In this document: positions 54,085 through 58,974 of the stretch, in pieces
How positions within the stretch are numbered: the first letter of the stretch is position 1
Layout: every line of letters begins with the position of its first letter
The notes under the pieces: model-generated
Told to the model about the DNA's origin: nothing
Databases searched by the model: none
The model's input: the letters and a program-made list of their open reading frames with translations, nothing else
Origin: Deltaproteobacteria bacterium
Lineage (GTDB): Bacteria; Myxococcota_C; UBA6777
Direction of reading: 5' to 3'
Assembly: GCA_002731275.1 (NCBI GenBank)
Contig: PCBK01000044.1
Coordinates: forward strand, 1 to 64,000
DNA: 64,000 nt
Position numbers and translations under genes: made by a program

Positions 54085-55857
54085 TCAACGGGGTTGGCAT
54101 GTTCCATTGACGCAGTTCATGTTGCTTCCACAGATGTTGCCACATGTTCCGCAGTTGTTCGGATCACCCATTAGATATGTGCATTTACCATCGCATATGT
54201 CTGGAATCATCGATGGGCATTGAGTCGTACATATCCCGCTGGAGCAGGTCTTTCCGGAGGAACAGGCGTTTCCACAACTCCCACAATGGTTTTGAGCGCT
54301 GTTGAGGTCGGCACAGACGTTTCCACAGAGGGTGGTGCCGCGCGGACATGTTTGTGTGCATTGTCCTTTGGCACACAACTGACCACTTGGACATGTTTTT
54401 CCACAGACACCGCAGTTGCTACGGTCATTGCTGATGTCTACACACACATTGTTGCAGACGACTTGATGTGTTGGACAATTGAAGACGCATTTTCCACCCT
54501 GGCATGACGCGCCGTTGATACATTTGATCCCACAACCACCACAGTGGAGTGGGTGGGACGCTGTATCCACACAGCTGCCGTTACAAATGGCTTGTGAACC
54601 ACCTATACAGGGAGCATTACAGGAGCCGTTGACACACATCTTACCTGATGGGCATTTGTTGCCACACGCACCGCAGTGATCGTTGTCGTTTTGGACGTCG
54701 ACACAGCGATTGTCGCATCGGGTCGTGACGGGCGAGCAAGTTTGAAAGCATTTTGCCTCATGACACACCCAACCTGATGGACATTGATTGCCACAACCAC
54801 CACAATTGTTTCGATCGTTTCTGTTGTCCACACAAGTACCACCACACTTGAGTAAGCCTGCGGGACAACTGATCGCACATAGGCCATCAAAGCAAAATGA
54901 ACCGCTGGGACATTGATTGCCGCAAGCGCCACAGTTGTTGGTGTCTTGTTTGATATCGGTGCAAGTGTTGTTGCACAAAACGGAGTTTGCTGCACATGGG
55001 AGTTCGCAAGAGCCGTTTTGACAACGCTCTCCCGCCTTACACGAGAGACTACATTGGCCGCAGTGACTGGCGTTGTTGCTGGTGTCTGTGCATTGGCCAT
55101 TGCAGTTGGTGAGACCTGAAGGACAAAGACAACTTCCATTGATGCAGGATGTGCCCCATGTGCATTGATTGCCACACGCTCCGCAGTTTGCGTTGTCAGT
55201 CTTTGTGTCGATGCACTTCGTACCACAACTTCGCTTTCCTGAAGGGCACACACATGTCCCACCATTACATGATTGTCCAGTTGGACATGTGTTTCCACAC
55301 GTTCCGCAGTGGACAACGTTTGTGCTGGTATCAACACATTTCCCGTTGCATCGAGCGTTTCCATTGCTGCATGAAGTCGTGCAGGTGCCCTGAACACAAA
55401 CAGCTCCTTGTCGACAAGCCTGCCCACAAGCGCCGCAGTTGTTCGTATCACTCGCCGTGTCGACACATACACCTCCACACAGCGTCTGTTGTTGGTTGCA
55501 TGTGCTCACACATTTACCGGCTTGACACAGCTCACCTGTATTGCACTGCTTTCCACACGCACCACAGTGGCTCGTGTTGGTGCGCAATGAGACGCATAAT
55601 GTCCCACACATCGTCTCGCCACCGTTACATTGACAGCCTCCATTTACGCAGCTCTGTCCTGACGGACAAGCCGGGTCACACGTCTTTATTGTGCAGAGAT
55701 TTTGTGCATTACAGAAGGTGTTTGCTGAACAGTCGTCATTCCCTCGGCAGGGGAGTGGACCGGGAGAACATGCCGATGAGAGTGAGAGTCCAAACAATAA
55801 TATCCCAAGCAGGATAAAGCGACCTGACATGATAGAGTGTTGAAGAAGTGCTTGCAT
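54085..55857 (-). CDS. Lipoprotein built of twelve Cys-rich repeats
   Basis: A 590-residue protein with a lipoprotein signal (lipobox LSSAC) and an EGF-like start (CRGNDDCSANTFCNAQNLC). Twelve repeats of about 38-46 residues follow with the pattern CxxxCVDxxxDxxNCGxCGxxCxxGxxCxxGxC. Such repeats are common in secreted proteins of Myxococcota, where they are sometimes mislabelled as tryptophan synthase. Each unit has many Cys, presumably disulfide-bonded outside the cytoplasm. Repeat number may vary between strains. It lies about 100 bases downstream of the caspase-like gene on the same strand. The start at 55857 has AGGAAA upstream. Confidence 0.82.
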   Translation of the reverse strand: MQALLQHSIMSGRFILLGILLFGLSLSSACSPGPLPCRGNDDCSANTFCNAQNLCTIKTCDPACPSGQSCVNGGCQCNGGETMCGTLCVSLRTNTSHCGACGKQCNTGELCQAGKCVSTCNQQQTLCGGVCVDTASDTNNCGACGQACRQGAVCVQGTCTTSCSNGNARCNGKCVDTSTNVVHCGTCGNTCPTGQSCNGGTCVCPSGKRSCGTKCIDTKTDNANCGACGNQCTWGTSCINGSCLCPSGLTNCNGQCTDTSNNASHCGQCSLSCKAGERCQNGSCELPCAANSVLCNNTCTDIKQDTNNCGACGNQCPSGSFCFDGLCAISCPAGLLKCGGTCVDNRNDRNNCGGCGNQCPSGWVCHEAKCFQTCSPVTTRCDNRCVDVQNDNDHCGACGNKCPSGKMCVNGSCNAPCIGGSQAICNGSCVDTASHPLHCGGCGIKCINGASCQGGKCVFNCPTHQVVCNNVCVDISNDRSNCGVCGKTCPSGQLCAKGQCTQTCPRGTTLCGNVCADLNSAQNHCGSCGNACSSGKTCSSGICTTQCPSMIPDICDGKCTYLMGDPNNCGTCGNICGSNMNCVNGTCQPR

Positions 55858-55961
55858 CGCGTGTTTCCTCATATGTGAAAAGGGTGGGTGTTTCGGTTCG
55901 TATGTATATCTTGCGATCTTGATCAGTGGTTTGTTGTCTCAGACCTTTGGTGTCTTAGGCA

Positions 55962-57575
55962 TCAGAGCATCCATATAACGCCTATACTGACGTTGAGTGC
56001 GGGGGCAATGCGTACGATGTTTTGGTCAAAGAAGACAAACTGTGGGCCACCCGAGAGGGCCAGGCGAAAGGACAAATCGGGTCGAAAATAGTAATCCAAA
56101 TTTCCAGTCAAACCTGCGACAAATCCAGCGTTCCAGAAGATCCCAGAGGGGCCTTGACGCAGCAGCAAGAGGGGTTCGAGATGCAGTCCACCCCATAACC
56201 CCAATTGCCGTGTCGAGAAGCCCGTCCCAACCGCTAACTTGAACGAGATGTGGTGGGTCTGGTAGTCCAGCGCCAGGGCGTTGGCGAGTCCAAAGCGGTA
56301 GCCAATACCTGCACGCAGCCAGTGTCCCGAGCCCAAGAGCAGGCCAATTCCCATATTATTGAAGGTCATCTGTGAGAGGGGGTTGTACTGAAAGACAACA
56401 CCCCAGTGGGCTGAGTGTTGTCTCTCGCCTTTTTGGGTGTGGTGTTTGTTGGTGACGTGCTGCCAGGATAATTTTTTGGGCGTGATGTTGGTGCGTGTCT
56501 GTGTTCGCATGTCGATGGTCTGTTGCCCCAGCCATTTGTGGAGGCGCACGTTGACCTGATAGACACCTTTATTTACACCGATCTCAACGGACTTTCCTGG
56601 GGATTTGTAAAAGTCCTGTACGAGCTGCCCTTGGCGGTACAAAAAGATATGGCCTTTGAGCGCGTGAGCAAAGACCATGTGAGAAGGTGCTCTTCTTAGA
56701 AAACTTATATACAGTGGTCCTTGCCCCCGCAAGTTAAGCTGATGGGAAGGGCGCTGAACTTCGACGTTGTGACGTGATGAACGAGAGAGTGTTTGTTGGT
56801 AGACATATTGATGGATCTCGCCGAATGATACGCGCTGATCTTTGTTTTTATCGGCGGCACCTCGGAGTCCTGCGAGCAGGCTGGAGGTGAAGAGAGAGCT
56901 CTTGATCGTGTCGGATTCGTAAGAGCGACCATTTGCTTCGGAGGAGGTGAGGATTGCGACGCCGCGTGTGCGAAGATCGTCGATAGGGCGCCAACGTATC
57001 GAACGCAGACGTTTCGCACCCTTTGCGCGCAGGATTCTGCCACTGTAACACGAGTCGATCAACATAATCCGTACACGCGCAGATAGGCTCCGTGCAAAAC
57101 GCCGGACCTCCGCAAAGGGCAGCGTATCATTGCCAAGCTGAAAGTGCTGCTTGCGTGCGTGTCCCGAGTAATAGAACAAAAAGATACTGTTGCGATGAGC
57201 GCGTCGAAAGAGGTGACGGATATGCTTCATGGTAATTCGGACTTGCTGGACACTTGGAGATAGCATGAGTTTGATCTGGTTGGACTTGTACCCTCCGAGC
57301 TGTCGAAGAACACGTGCCACTTTTTTGGCATCGTCTTGTGCAAAGCGCAGCCCCGGCAGATAGCGGTCACCTCGATTGTGTCCGATCAACAAAGCGTATC
57401 GTTGGATGGTCTGTTTGTGAGACGACGCATCCACAGACGAAGAGGACGTGAGGACACATAGCACACACGTCAACATGATGAGCACCCAAGTGAAGGCCCT
57501 CTTGCCCGTCTGGATCGTCCTCTGGCTGCCTGATTTGTCGCAAGCATATGTCGAGAAGCTGTTTGTGTGGCTCAT
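55962..57575 (-). CDS. Caspase-like (C14) protein with C-terminal beta-barrel-like domain
   Basis: A 537-residue protein. An N-terminal hydrophobic signal or anchor (near residue 30-50) leads to a caspase-fold domain: ALLIGHNRGD, His of the dyad in FYYSGHA (near 138) and Cys in MLIDSCYSG (near 175). An EF-hand-like DKNKDQRVSFGEI follows. A middle beta domain (PEGA-like: ALKGHIFLYRQGQLV) precedes about 150 residues of alternating hydrophobic strands resembling an outer-membrane barrel. Both catalytic residues are intact, so proteolysis is plausible. The ATG overlaps the previous stop (57572-57575), tying expression to the DUF4384-like gene. Confidence 0.82.
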   Translation of the reverse strand: MSHTNSFSTYACDKSGSQRTIQTGKRAFTWVLIMLTCVLCVLTSSSSVDASSHKQTIQRYALLIGHNRGDRYLPGLRFAQDDAKKVARVLRQLGGYKSNQIKLMLSPSVQQVRITMKHIRHLFRRAHRNSIFLFYYSGHARKQHFQLGNDTLPFAEVRRFARSLSARVRIMLIDSCYSGRILRAKGAKRLRSIRWRPIDDLRTRGVAILTSSEANGRSYESDTIKSSLFTSSLLAGLRGAADKNKDQRVSFGEIHQYVYQQTLSRSSRHNVEVQRPSHQLNLRGQGPLYISFLRRAPSHMVFAHALKGHIFLYRQGQLVQDFYKSPGKSVEIGVNKGVYQVNVRLHKWLGQQTIDMRTQTRTNITPKKLSWQHVTNKHHTQKGERQHSAHWGVVFQYNPLSQMTFNNMGIGLLLGSGHWLRAGIGYRFGLANALALDYQTHHISFKLAVGTGFSTRQLGLWGGLHLEPLLLLRQGPSGIFWNAGFVAGLTGNLDYYFRPDLSFRLALSGGPQFVFFDQNIVRIAPALNVSIGVIWML

Positions 57576-58453
57576 TTGTTTTCTTTGTGTTGGGGGGTGT
57601 GTTGACGTTTGGTCAACAGCCAACTTTGTTGGTGAATACATCGCGACATTGGGAGCGTCTTGAGCGATTGAATCGAGCGCTCGCGCAATTGCTCTCGCAA
57701 TGTTTGTTGAAATATCCGATAGGAGAGTGGTTGCTGTGTGATGCAGACGTAGATGCGCTCGGCTTCTTTGGCGTCGTCGAGGATGGCTCCATCAGGAAGG
57801 ACGAGTGTTTTGCCTTCCGGTGCGGCTTGTAGAGGGAAGGCACGTCCCGAGGCGTCTGGATAGAGAGGGCTAAGTTGTCCTCTTTGGTCGCTCATAAAGA
57901 GCTGGAGATACGCTCTCTGTTTGGTCCTGTAGTGCGCTGTAAAACGCAACTGATCGTCCGCTTGGACAAATGTATTCGCTGCGCCCTTTTGGGAGACACC
58001 CCCTCGTCTGTAAAAAAATGAGAACGAAAACGATGGTGTGTGATGCGCTCGCTTTGTCATGCTTGCCCCTTTGGGCCGTAGCGCCGAGCGACCTGTGAGA
58101 GGCTTGTTAGAGGAGGTTGAAGGCTGCGTCAGCCAATGTGTTGGGACGCTCAAAAAGAGCACGGCGCAAGCGGCTACGGCGAGCAGGGGGTAGAGACGTC
58201 TGCTCGCTGTGTTGGAGCGTGGCCGTTCGGCTTGTCCTCCTTCGAGGACCTGCAATTGGGGTCCATCCCACAGAGCATCGGGAAGGGATGGCTGTTGTTG
58301 TGCGAGTTGTTCGCCTCTTGTGAGGAGCGCTCTCAGCTTGGTTTCGTCTGACGCTGTGAAGTCAGGCGCTTGCGTTGTGTCCTGTGGTGGGGTGTCTTCT
58401 TCGAGGTGAAGAAGATCGTGTTGGAGACGTGTTTGTGGATCGTGTCGATTCAT
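57572..58453 (-). CDS. Single-pass membrane protein with DUF4384-like domain
   Basis: A 293-residue protein: N-terminal cytoplasmic region (about 85 residues, QLAQQQPSLPDALWDG) like an anti-sigma factor tail, one membrane helix (PLLAVAACAVLFLSV), and an extracytoplasmic domain with YLQLFMSDQRGQLSPLYPD ... KTLVLPDG typical of DUF4384. The ATG overlaps the sigma-factor stop (58450-58453), and its own stop overlaps the caspase ATG. The topology suits an anti-sigma or sensor protein linking a signal outside to the ECF factor inside (inference). Confidence 0.78.
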   Translation of the reverse strand: MNRHDPQTRLQHDLLHLEEDTPPQDTTQAPDFTASDETKLRALLTRGEQLAQQQPSLPDALWDGPQLQVLEGGQAERPRSNTASRRLYPLLAVAACAVLFLSVPTHWLTQPSTSSNKPLTGRSALRPKGASMTKRAHHTPSFSFSFFYRRGGVSQKGAANTFVQADDQLRFTAHYRTKQRAYLQLFMSDQRGQLSPLYPDASGRAFPLQAAPEGKTLVLPDGAILDDAKEAERIYVCITQQPLSYRIFQQTLREQLRERSIQSLKTLPMSRCIHQQSWLLTKRQHTPQHKENK

Positions 58454-58974
58454 ACTTGGTTCTCCGAATGGGTGGACAAGAACACGCGTAATCTCTTCAG
58501 CGCTGCGCGGGTCCGTTTCCAGACCGTGTTTCTGTGCAGCCCGTGCTGTGTGGCGAGTTCTTCCCATGTCATACCTTCGATATATCTGCCAAACAGGATC
58601 GAGATGTCCTGTGGTTGTTCTTGTGAGAGGGCCTCTTGCAAGCTCAGACGTGTCTCTGCGTCGAGTGTTGTGGAGGCAGAGTGAAAGAGTTCGTAGAGAC
58701 GTTCTTCTTGCACGTCAACGCGTCTAAATGTCTGGTAGGTCCGGTGAAAGTTGCTCGTGCGCCATTTGATGAGTCGGCGTAACAGGCCGCGTGGGTCTTC
58801 GACCTGGAACCGCTCGAAGTGACGGTAGATGTCGTACCAAACGAGTGATTCCACTTCGCCGACATCGCCTGCAGAAGACAACTGAGAGGCCGCGATGTGA
58901 TGAACAAATCGCTGGTGTTCTTTGTAAAATGAGCGAAATTCGGCTTCCACGCTTGATCCTATGTTGGCGTCCAT
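58450..58974 (-). CDS. ECF-type RNA polymerase sigma factor
   Basis: A 174-residue ECF sigma factor of normal length. Region 2 is recognisable in YKEHQRFVHHIA and LVWYDIYRHFERFQ..PRGLLRRLIKWR, and region 4 in EGMTWEELATQHGLHRNTVWKRTRAALKRL (HTH). It heads the operon with the DUF4384-like and caspase-like genes by overlapping start/stop codons, which is the layout of a sigma/anti-sigma pair. The ribosome site is weak. It is divergent from the giant membrane protein gene. Confidence 0.88.
   Translation of the reverse strand: MDANIGSSVEAEFRSFYKEHQRFVHHIAASQLSSAGDVGEVESLVWYDIYRHFERFQVEDPRGLLRRLIKWRTSNFHRTYQTFRRVDVQEERLYELFHSASTTLDAETRLSLQEALSQEQPQDISILFGRYIEGMTWEELATQHGLHRNTVWKRTRAALKRLRVFLSTHSENQV

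Follow-up and report, generated by a model that had tools for sequence, protein, structure and literature searches.

On the minus strand of the window, the 64,000-nucleotide stretch of a deltaproteobacterial contig (PCBK01000044.1) analyzed here, an ECF sigma factor, a DUF4384-type membrane protein and a caspase-like protease are encoded in this order, and the last two proteins carry the same R-x-K-G motif: RAK185/G186 in a loop of the caspase and RPK128/G129 in a linker of the membrane protein. Judging from the sequence features described below, it seems rather probable that the exported caspase activates itself and then cuts the membrane protein, almost certainly an anti-sigma factor, at K/G as a site-1 protease, which would free the sigma factor. 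An operon association of sigma-70 and metacaspase genes is already known, as an earlier survey documents (PMC3501461); what is new here is the R-x-K-G motif shared by the caspase loop and the anti-sigma linker.

Gene order and recurrence of the cassette

As originally predicted, the three genes are joined by two literal ATGA overlaps, located at 58450-58453 between the sigma and anti-sigma genes and at 57572-57575 between the anti-sigma and caspase genes. Longer reading frames listed mechanically (331 aa for the anti-sigma, 559 aa for the caspase) begin upstream of these overlaps; we used the ATG starts at 58453 and 57575. The gene identities proposed earlier were also recovered by profile searches, with the DUF4384 match of the window copy below cut-off. 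The first gene (58450..58974; this and all features below are on the minus strand) encodes a protein of 174 aa that scores above cut-off with TIGR02937 (sigma70-ECF, 49.9 bits vs 42.9) and Sigma70_r4_2 (26.9 vs 25.7), the region 2 match being below cut-off. With regions 2 and 4 only and a size in the range of about 170-200 aa, its sequence has the layout of an ECF sigma factor. A sigma target promoter upstream of the operon, envisaged in the original prediction, was not identified: the 160 bp preceding the sigma genes were scanned for AAC/CGT pairs of the ECF type and for words common to orthologs, and nothing consistent emerged. An Rfam search of the 53-61 kb region of the window and a search of a plasmid collection gave no match.

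The prediction mentioned neither the shared K/G site nor a fourth gene (54085..55872), which lies 89 bp downstream of the caspase gene and encodes a Cys-rich lipoprotein (17.6% Cys) with 12 STIG1 repeats (PF04885). We infer that this gene belongs to the cassette, and its product is a possible output. Genes following cassette caspases often encode large secreted proteins or lipoproteins, frequently Cys-rich and seemingly unrelated from one cassette to another (the window gene, L023, L025, L027, L028, L034, L038, L040, L075, L093, L099 and L104); these proteins, too, may be outputs.

Where the original prediction considered a single locus, we find a multi-copy cassette common to several phyla. 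The source genome (G000, 10.75 Mb) contains 21 caspases detected by Pfam, 18 of which come third in the same trio; a 19th trio was found through DUF4384, bringing the genome to at least 19 copies. HMM searches in five genomes of the family (G000 and four related ones) identified 39 full trios, and more were missed by Pfam. Judged from these sequence counts, the recurrence of the trio is beyond chance, and its conservation, which had been proposed as a check, is observed. The trio at L097 in genome G003 comes closest to that of the window, with 43% identity in the sigma factor, 43% across the whole caspase, barrel included, and 31% in the anti-sigma, where the comparison is limited to the membrane and periplasmic part. 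A family-alignment scan of GTDB genome contigs, with loci picked by caspase similarity, yielded 80 closest caspase loci from Myxococcota/Deltaproteobacteria, Spirochaetota (including Treponema), Fibrobacterota, Acidobacteria MAGs and others; the window caspase as a single-protein query found no match in these contigs, and an alignment of 20 paralogous caspases was too divergent to serve as a query. Sigma and anti-sigma genes lie directly upstream of the caspase gene in 55/80 loci by automatic criteria and in about 59/80 after a re-check that added L118, L179, L183 (Nannocystis pusilla DSM 53165) and L185; several of the remaining loci end at contig edges. The pair is found downstream of the caspase in 8/80 (L107, L108, L120, L126, L136, L150, L161 and L169), with the KG linker kept. 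The 4-nt overlap between anti-sigma and caspase genes is repeated in 22 GTDB loci. Within the family, distances correlate with a Mantel r of 0.88 between anti-sigma and caspase, compared with 0.61 between sigma and anti-sigma and 0.63 between sigma and caspase.

Several variants of the cassette were observed. Locus L036 (contig C111 of the source genome) contains two full cassettes head to tail, 56 bp apart. At three other loci of this genome (L028, L034 and L037), the sigma position is taken by a distinct protein of 175-190 aa that has no Pfam match over cut-off and aligns tentatively with a sigma profile (hhalign, prob 70, E 4e-5); this may be a very diverged sigma factor or a new regulator. 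Divergent caspases without the cassette-type loop occur at L033 in the source genome and at L089 and L098 in G003. The L033 caspase, which has a transmembrane segment after the caspase domain, is preceded by an anti-sigma-like protein that has no sigma gene beside it.

The membrane anti-sigma and the exported caspase

The second gene (57572..58453) encodes a single-pass membrane protein of 293 aa. In its AF2 model, a short cytoplasmic part with N-terminal helices is followed by a transmembrane helix (residues 88-102; 58148..58192), also visible as a peak of hydrophobicity, by a linker (residues 103-140) and by a periplasmic, Ig-like beta-sandwich resembling DUF4384 (residues 141-282; 57608..58033), most of which is modeled with a pLDDT >90. 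The match of the window copy to DUF4384 (PF14326) is weak (E 0.0097; 16.4 bits, below the gathering cut-off of 27), and 14/18 anti-sigma paralogs match the domain at E up to 0.1, with a best value of 5e-12. Structure searches with the sandwich, using VIA and Foldseek, returned common beta-sandwich folds only (best VIA Z 8.6, to 9ard). No FecR domain was matched by any of the 18 paralogs, which have DUF4384 instead. The zf-HC2 anti-sigma domain is detected in six of them, with no match in the window copy, whose single transmembrane segment and N-terminal helices make it a candidate ZAS-type (Class I) membrane anti-sigma. Because it always stands beside an ECF sigma gene, has a single transmembrane segment and shows zf-HC2 in 6/18 paralogs, the DUF4384-type protein is almost certainly the anti-sigma of the adjoining sigma factor, a role that the original prediction had considered plausible.

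The third gene (55962..57575) encodes a protein of 537 aa whose sole Pfam match is Peptidase_C14 (51.3 bits vs a cut-off of 21.4). Its AF2 model runs from a signal peptide (a hydrophobic N-terminal segment in residues 1-50; 57426..57575) through the caspase domain, a second beta domain and a disordered linker to seven or eight long strands at low confidence. The caspase domain aligns with metacaspase-4 (6w8r) at a VIA Z of 22.6 (207 residues, rmsd 2.6) and with caspase-3/7 at about 22; a PDB search by sequence gave only a marginal metacaspase match (E 0.035). The protein has the clan CD / Peptidase C14 fold with a His-Cys dyad, and this dyad is intact, as first noted: His139 (57159..57161) and Cys176 (57048..57050) are invariant in 20 paralogs and in the family alignment and, together with K185, in 50 cross-phylum caspases. 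Asp174, two residues before the catalytic Cys, is conserved in the family-level and cross-phylum alignments, consistent with a basic S1 pocket; cleavage after Lys or Arg, which marks orthocaspases and metacaspases, is a putative activity of the window caspase. The window caspase scores 86.5 bits with the model for EACC1-associated caspases (NF047832), below its cut-off of 140.

An exported location is well supported for the cassette caspases; signal peptides are present in 37/39 and 63/64 members of two sets. The C-terminal strands (residues 409-537; 55965..56351) would form an outer-membrane beta barrel ending in a beta signal, GVIWML. Such aromatic/hydrophobic, BAM-like endings are found in 26/39 and 35/64 cassette caspases vs 13/211 control ORFs, and a Foldseek search with the C-terminal strands gave weak matches to OmpA and porins. 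In a minority of paralogs (L035 and L037), hydrophobic or transmembrane helices near the C-terminus replace the barrel ending. From these models and endings, an outer-membrane barrel or tether is probable. The barrel-like C-terminus and the envelope location of proteolysis, both anticipated in the original prediction, are retained, proteolysis being likely the release step.

The shared R-x-K-G motif

In the anti-sigma, the predicted scissile site R126-P-K128/G129 (58067..58078) is located in the disordered periplasmic linker, where the pLDDT falls to about 48-50. In the caspase, the predicted autoprocessing site R183-A-K185/G186 (57018..57029) is located in the p20/p10 loop, with the invariant K185 bordering a loop of low confidence (residues 190-199). 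Sixty-one of 67 cross-phylum cassette anti-sigmas have a KG within 45 residues after the transmembrane helix (shuffle mean 18.8, maximum 29 in 3000), and KG follows the catalytic Cys in 65/66 caspase loops (shuffle mean 13.6), the shuffles ignoring the shared ancestry of paralogs so that these counts overstate significance. Among the 90 cytoplasmic residues of these anti-sigmas, KG appears in 6/67, no more than chance (shuffle mean 11.2). The count of 61/67 is unfiltered; an alignment whose sole invariant columns are K128-G129 was chosen by hand and omits several non-KG members.

The enrichment is also seen in individual genomes: KG occurs in 13/18 anti-sigma linkers (4.7 expected) and 16/18 caspase loops (4.8 expected) of G000, and in 8/12 linkers (3.0 expected) and 12/12 loops (4.0 expected) of G003. 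A possible third site, K382-G383 (56427..56432), lies in the caspase linker that joins the beta domain to the barrel; in the family, KG is enriched there (9/18, with 3.4 expected, and 9/12, with 1.8 expected), but this site is weaker than the other two. The P3 residue is Arg at 42/58 sites in anti-sigmas and 40/52 in caspases, and in ten pairs all residues from P3 through P1' agree; the association at P3 between paired sites (p 1.3e-4) is confounded by clade. Both family caspases with RG instead of KG in the loop pair with an RG-bearing anti-sigma (Fisher p 0.005).

As a control, we scored 24 zf-HC2 membrane anti-sigmas of the same 14 genomes. Two carry KG and both are apparently cassette members (L237, with an adjoining caspase, and L244, from the L161 genome and matching the L161 anti-sigma linker), which leaves 0/22 for non-cassette proteins; in the family of the window, KG is present in 1/10 non-cassette zf-HC2 controls. 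Five more DUF4384 or zf-HC2 loci are sigma/anti-sigma loci of the same kind, and all five have KG. Cassette anti-sigmas without KG amount to 6/67 in the GTDB loci and 14/36 in the family (first 45 residues after the transmembrane helix). The linkers of L128, L129 and L131 lack KG though their paired caspases retain TRAKGG; these anti-sigmas either have another site or have lost cleavage. KG is also enriched within the DUF4384 domain (15/18 vs 8.8), and part of the anti-sigma signal may be structural. In bacterial C14 peptidases generally, a basic residue and a following Gly may often occur beyond the catalytic Cys for some reason unrelated to autocleavage.

A candidate route across the envelope

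In the mechanism that we favor, the N-terminal cytoplasmic part of the anti-sigma would hold the ECF sigma factor at the inner membrane, with the disordered linker and the DUF4384 sandwich facing the periplasm, and the exported caspase would be tied to the outer membrane through its barrel. A signal, presumably sensed by the barrel or the envelope, would lead the caspase to process itself at K/G in the p20/p10 loop, and perhaps also to release itself from the barrel. The active caspase would then make the site-1 cut in the anti-sigma, at the same R-x-K/G motif of its periplasmic linker, after which a general site-2 protease and cytoplasmic proteases would free the sigma factor to act on its putative regulon. 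Cleavage after basic residues is described for orthocaspases (PMC6426788). A direct contact between caspase and anti-sigma fits with the fusion of a caspase domain to a DUF4384-like domain in single proteins of relatives (L073 in G001 and L077 in G002) and to DUF4384 in cyanobacterial orthocaspases (PMC8283722, PMC7475262).

The main rival to cleavage is inhibition: the R-x-K-G linker and DUF4384 would act as a pseudosubstrate keeping the caspase inactive, with the caspase as effector and the sigma factor only tuning expression. The shared motif, the co-divergence of the two proteins and the caspase-DUF4384 fusions suit an inhibitory contact as well as they suit cleavage. However, an inhibitor that is not cleaved would need no K/G identical to that of the autoprocessing loop, a transmembrane anchor followed by a flexible linker is typical of anti-sigmas that are proteolysed, and the sigma-linked function would become secondary; we regard inhibition as unlikely. 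The caspase could also be a mere product of the regulon, like the fourth gene, and perhaps a death or predation enzyme, if the sigma and anti-sigma formed an ordinary envelope-stress switch operated by another protease. The downstream secreted protein of the operon and the 2012 survey (PMC3501461), which linked operons of this kind with programmed cell death in Myxococcus, speak for this view, but it leaves unexplained both a caspase-type K/G limited to cassette anti-sigmas and the co-divergence of anti-sigma and caspase, and we consider it improbable. We consider it very doubtful that KG serves to cap the DUF4384 fold or arose by chance from composition, its likeness to the caspase loop being coincidental: KG is common in turns within DUF4384 and the linker site lies about 12 residues ahead of the first strand, but this site sits in the lowest-confidence part of the AF2 model, favors Arg at P3 as the caspase loop does, and in two systems has changed to RG along with that loop.

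Cleavage of the anti-sigma by the caspase would resemble the RseA/DegS/RseP and RsiW pathways, where a membrane anti-sigma receives a first cut in the periplasm, as predicted for the window cassette. The first protease in RseA or RsiW proteolysis is a PDZ serine protease or PrsW, whereas the candidate here is a caspase from the same operon. A chain running from a barrel in the outer membrane through an inner-membrane regulator to an ECF sigma recalls FecA-FecR-FecI, but the cassette has no FecR domain and no TonB receptor, and its barrel carries a protease. A caspase-like protease and a proposed anti-sigma are also combined in the CASP system (Cas7-11/Csx29/Csx30/CASP-sigma), for which a published model has cleavage by the caspase-like Csx29 relieving the inhibition of an ECF sigma by Csx30 (PMC10028731). 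CASP, however, is cytosolic and RNA-guided, uses a TPR-CHAT protein (Csx29) and has no membrane anchor; the window cassette has a membrane anti-sigma, an autoprocessing-type site in both proteins and an exported caspase, probably tethered to the outer membrane, in which Pfam finds only Peptidase_C14, accompanied by a signal peptide and the predicted barrel. Caspases and ECF sigmas also meet in EACC2-caspase neighborhoods, but these contain EACC2 and DUF1822 proteins and no transmembrane DUF4384 anti-sigma (PMC8195603), and CHAT proteins near ECF54 sigmas are mentioned in a review (PMC8999054). CalpL/T/S was dropped as a close parallel, CalpL being a Lon-type protease.

The nearest precedent is the survey of Asplund-Samuelsson et al., which, in its available part, places 4/5 M. 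xanthus metacaspases in operons with sigma-70, reports the same structure in Anaeromyxobacter, Haliangium, Sorangium, Ralstonia and Fibrobacter, and discusses cell death (PMC3501461). By gene order in overlapping taxa, these operons are very probably the same cassette. That part of the survey notes only the shared sigma-70 gene, with no mention of an anti-sigma, export, a barrel or a cleavage site, and adopts a death interpretation. The original prediction likewise proposed a death-linked circuit, for which we found no evidence. A literature search that covered openly available papers, the ECF re-classification paper (10.1093/nar/gkaa1229) excepted, found no account of the cassette anti-sigma, barrel or shared site.

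The role of bacterial caspases is a long-standing question, usually cast in terms of programmed cell death. For a cassette present in several phyla, and in about 20 copies in a single genome, the sequence now names candidates for the substrate, the scissile bond and the output (the ECF sigma factor), which makes bacterial caspase function directly testable. If the mechanism is correct, a caspase would extend the list of site-1 proteases that act on anti-sigma factors, and signals would pass from the outer to the inner membrane via proteolysis. Our judgment is evenly divided on the wider proposal that this is an undescribed class of trans-envelope signaling in several diderm phyla, in which an outer-membrane caspase self-activates at R-x-K/G and cuts the anti-sigma encoded with it, and that many bacterial caspases would be proteases of transcriptional signaling, not of death. 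For the cassette itself, its sequence features suggest that the caspase is probably a signaling key rather than a death enzyme.
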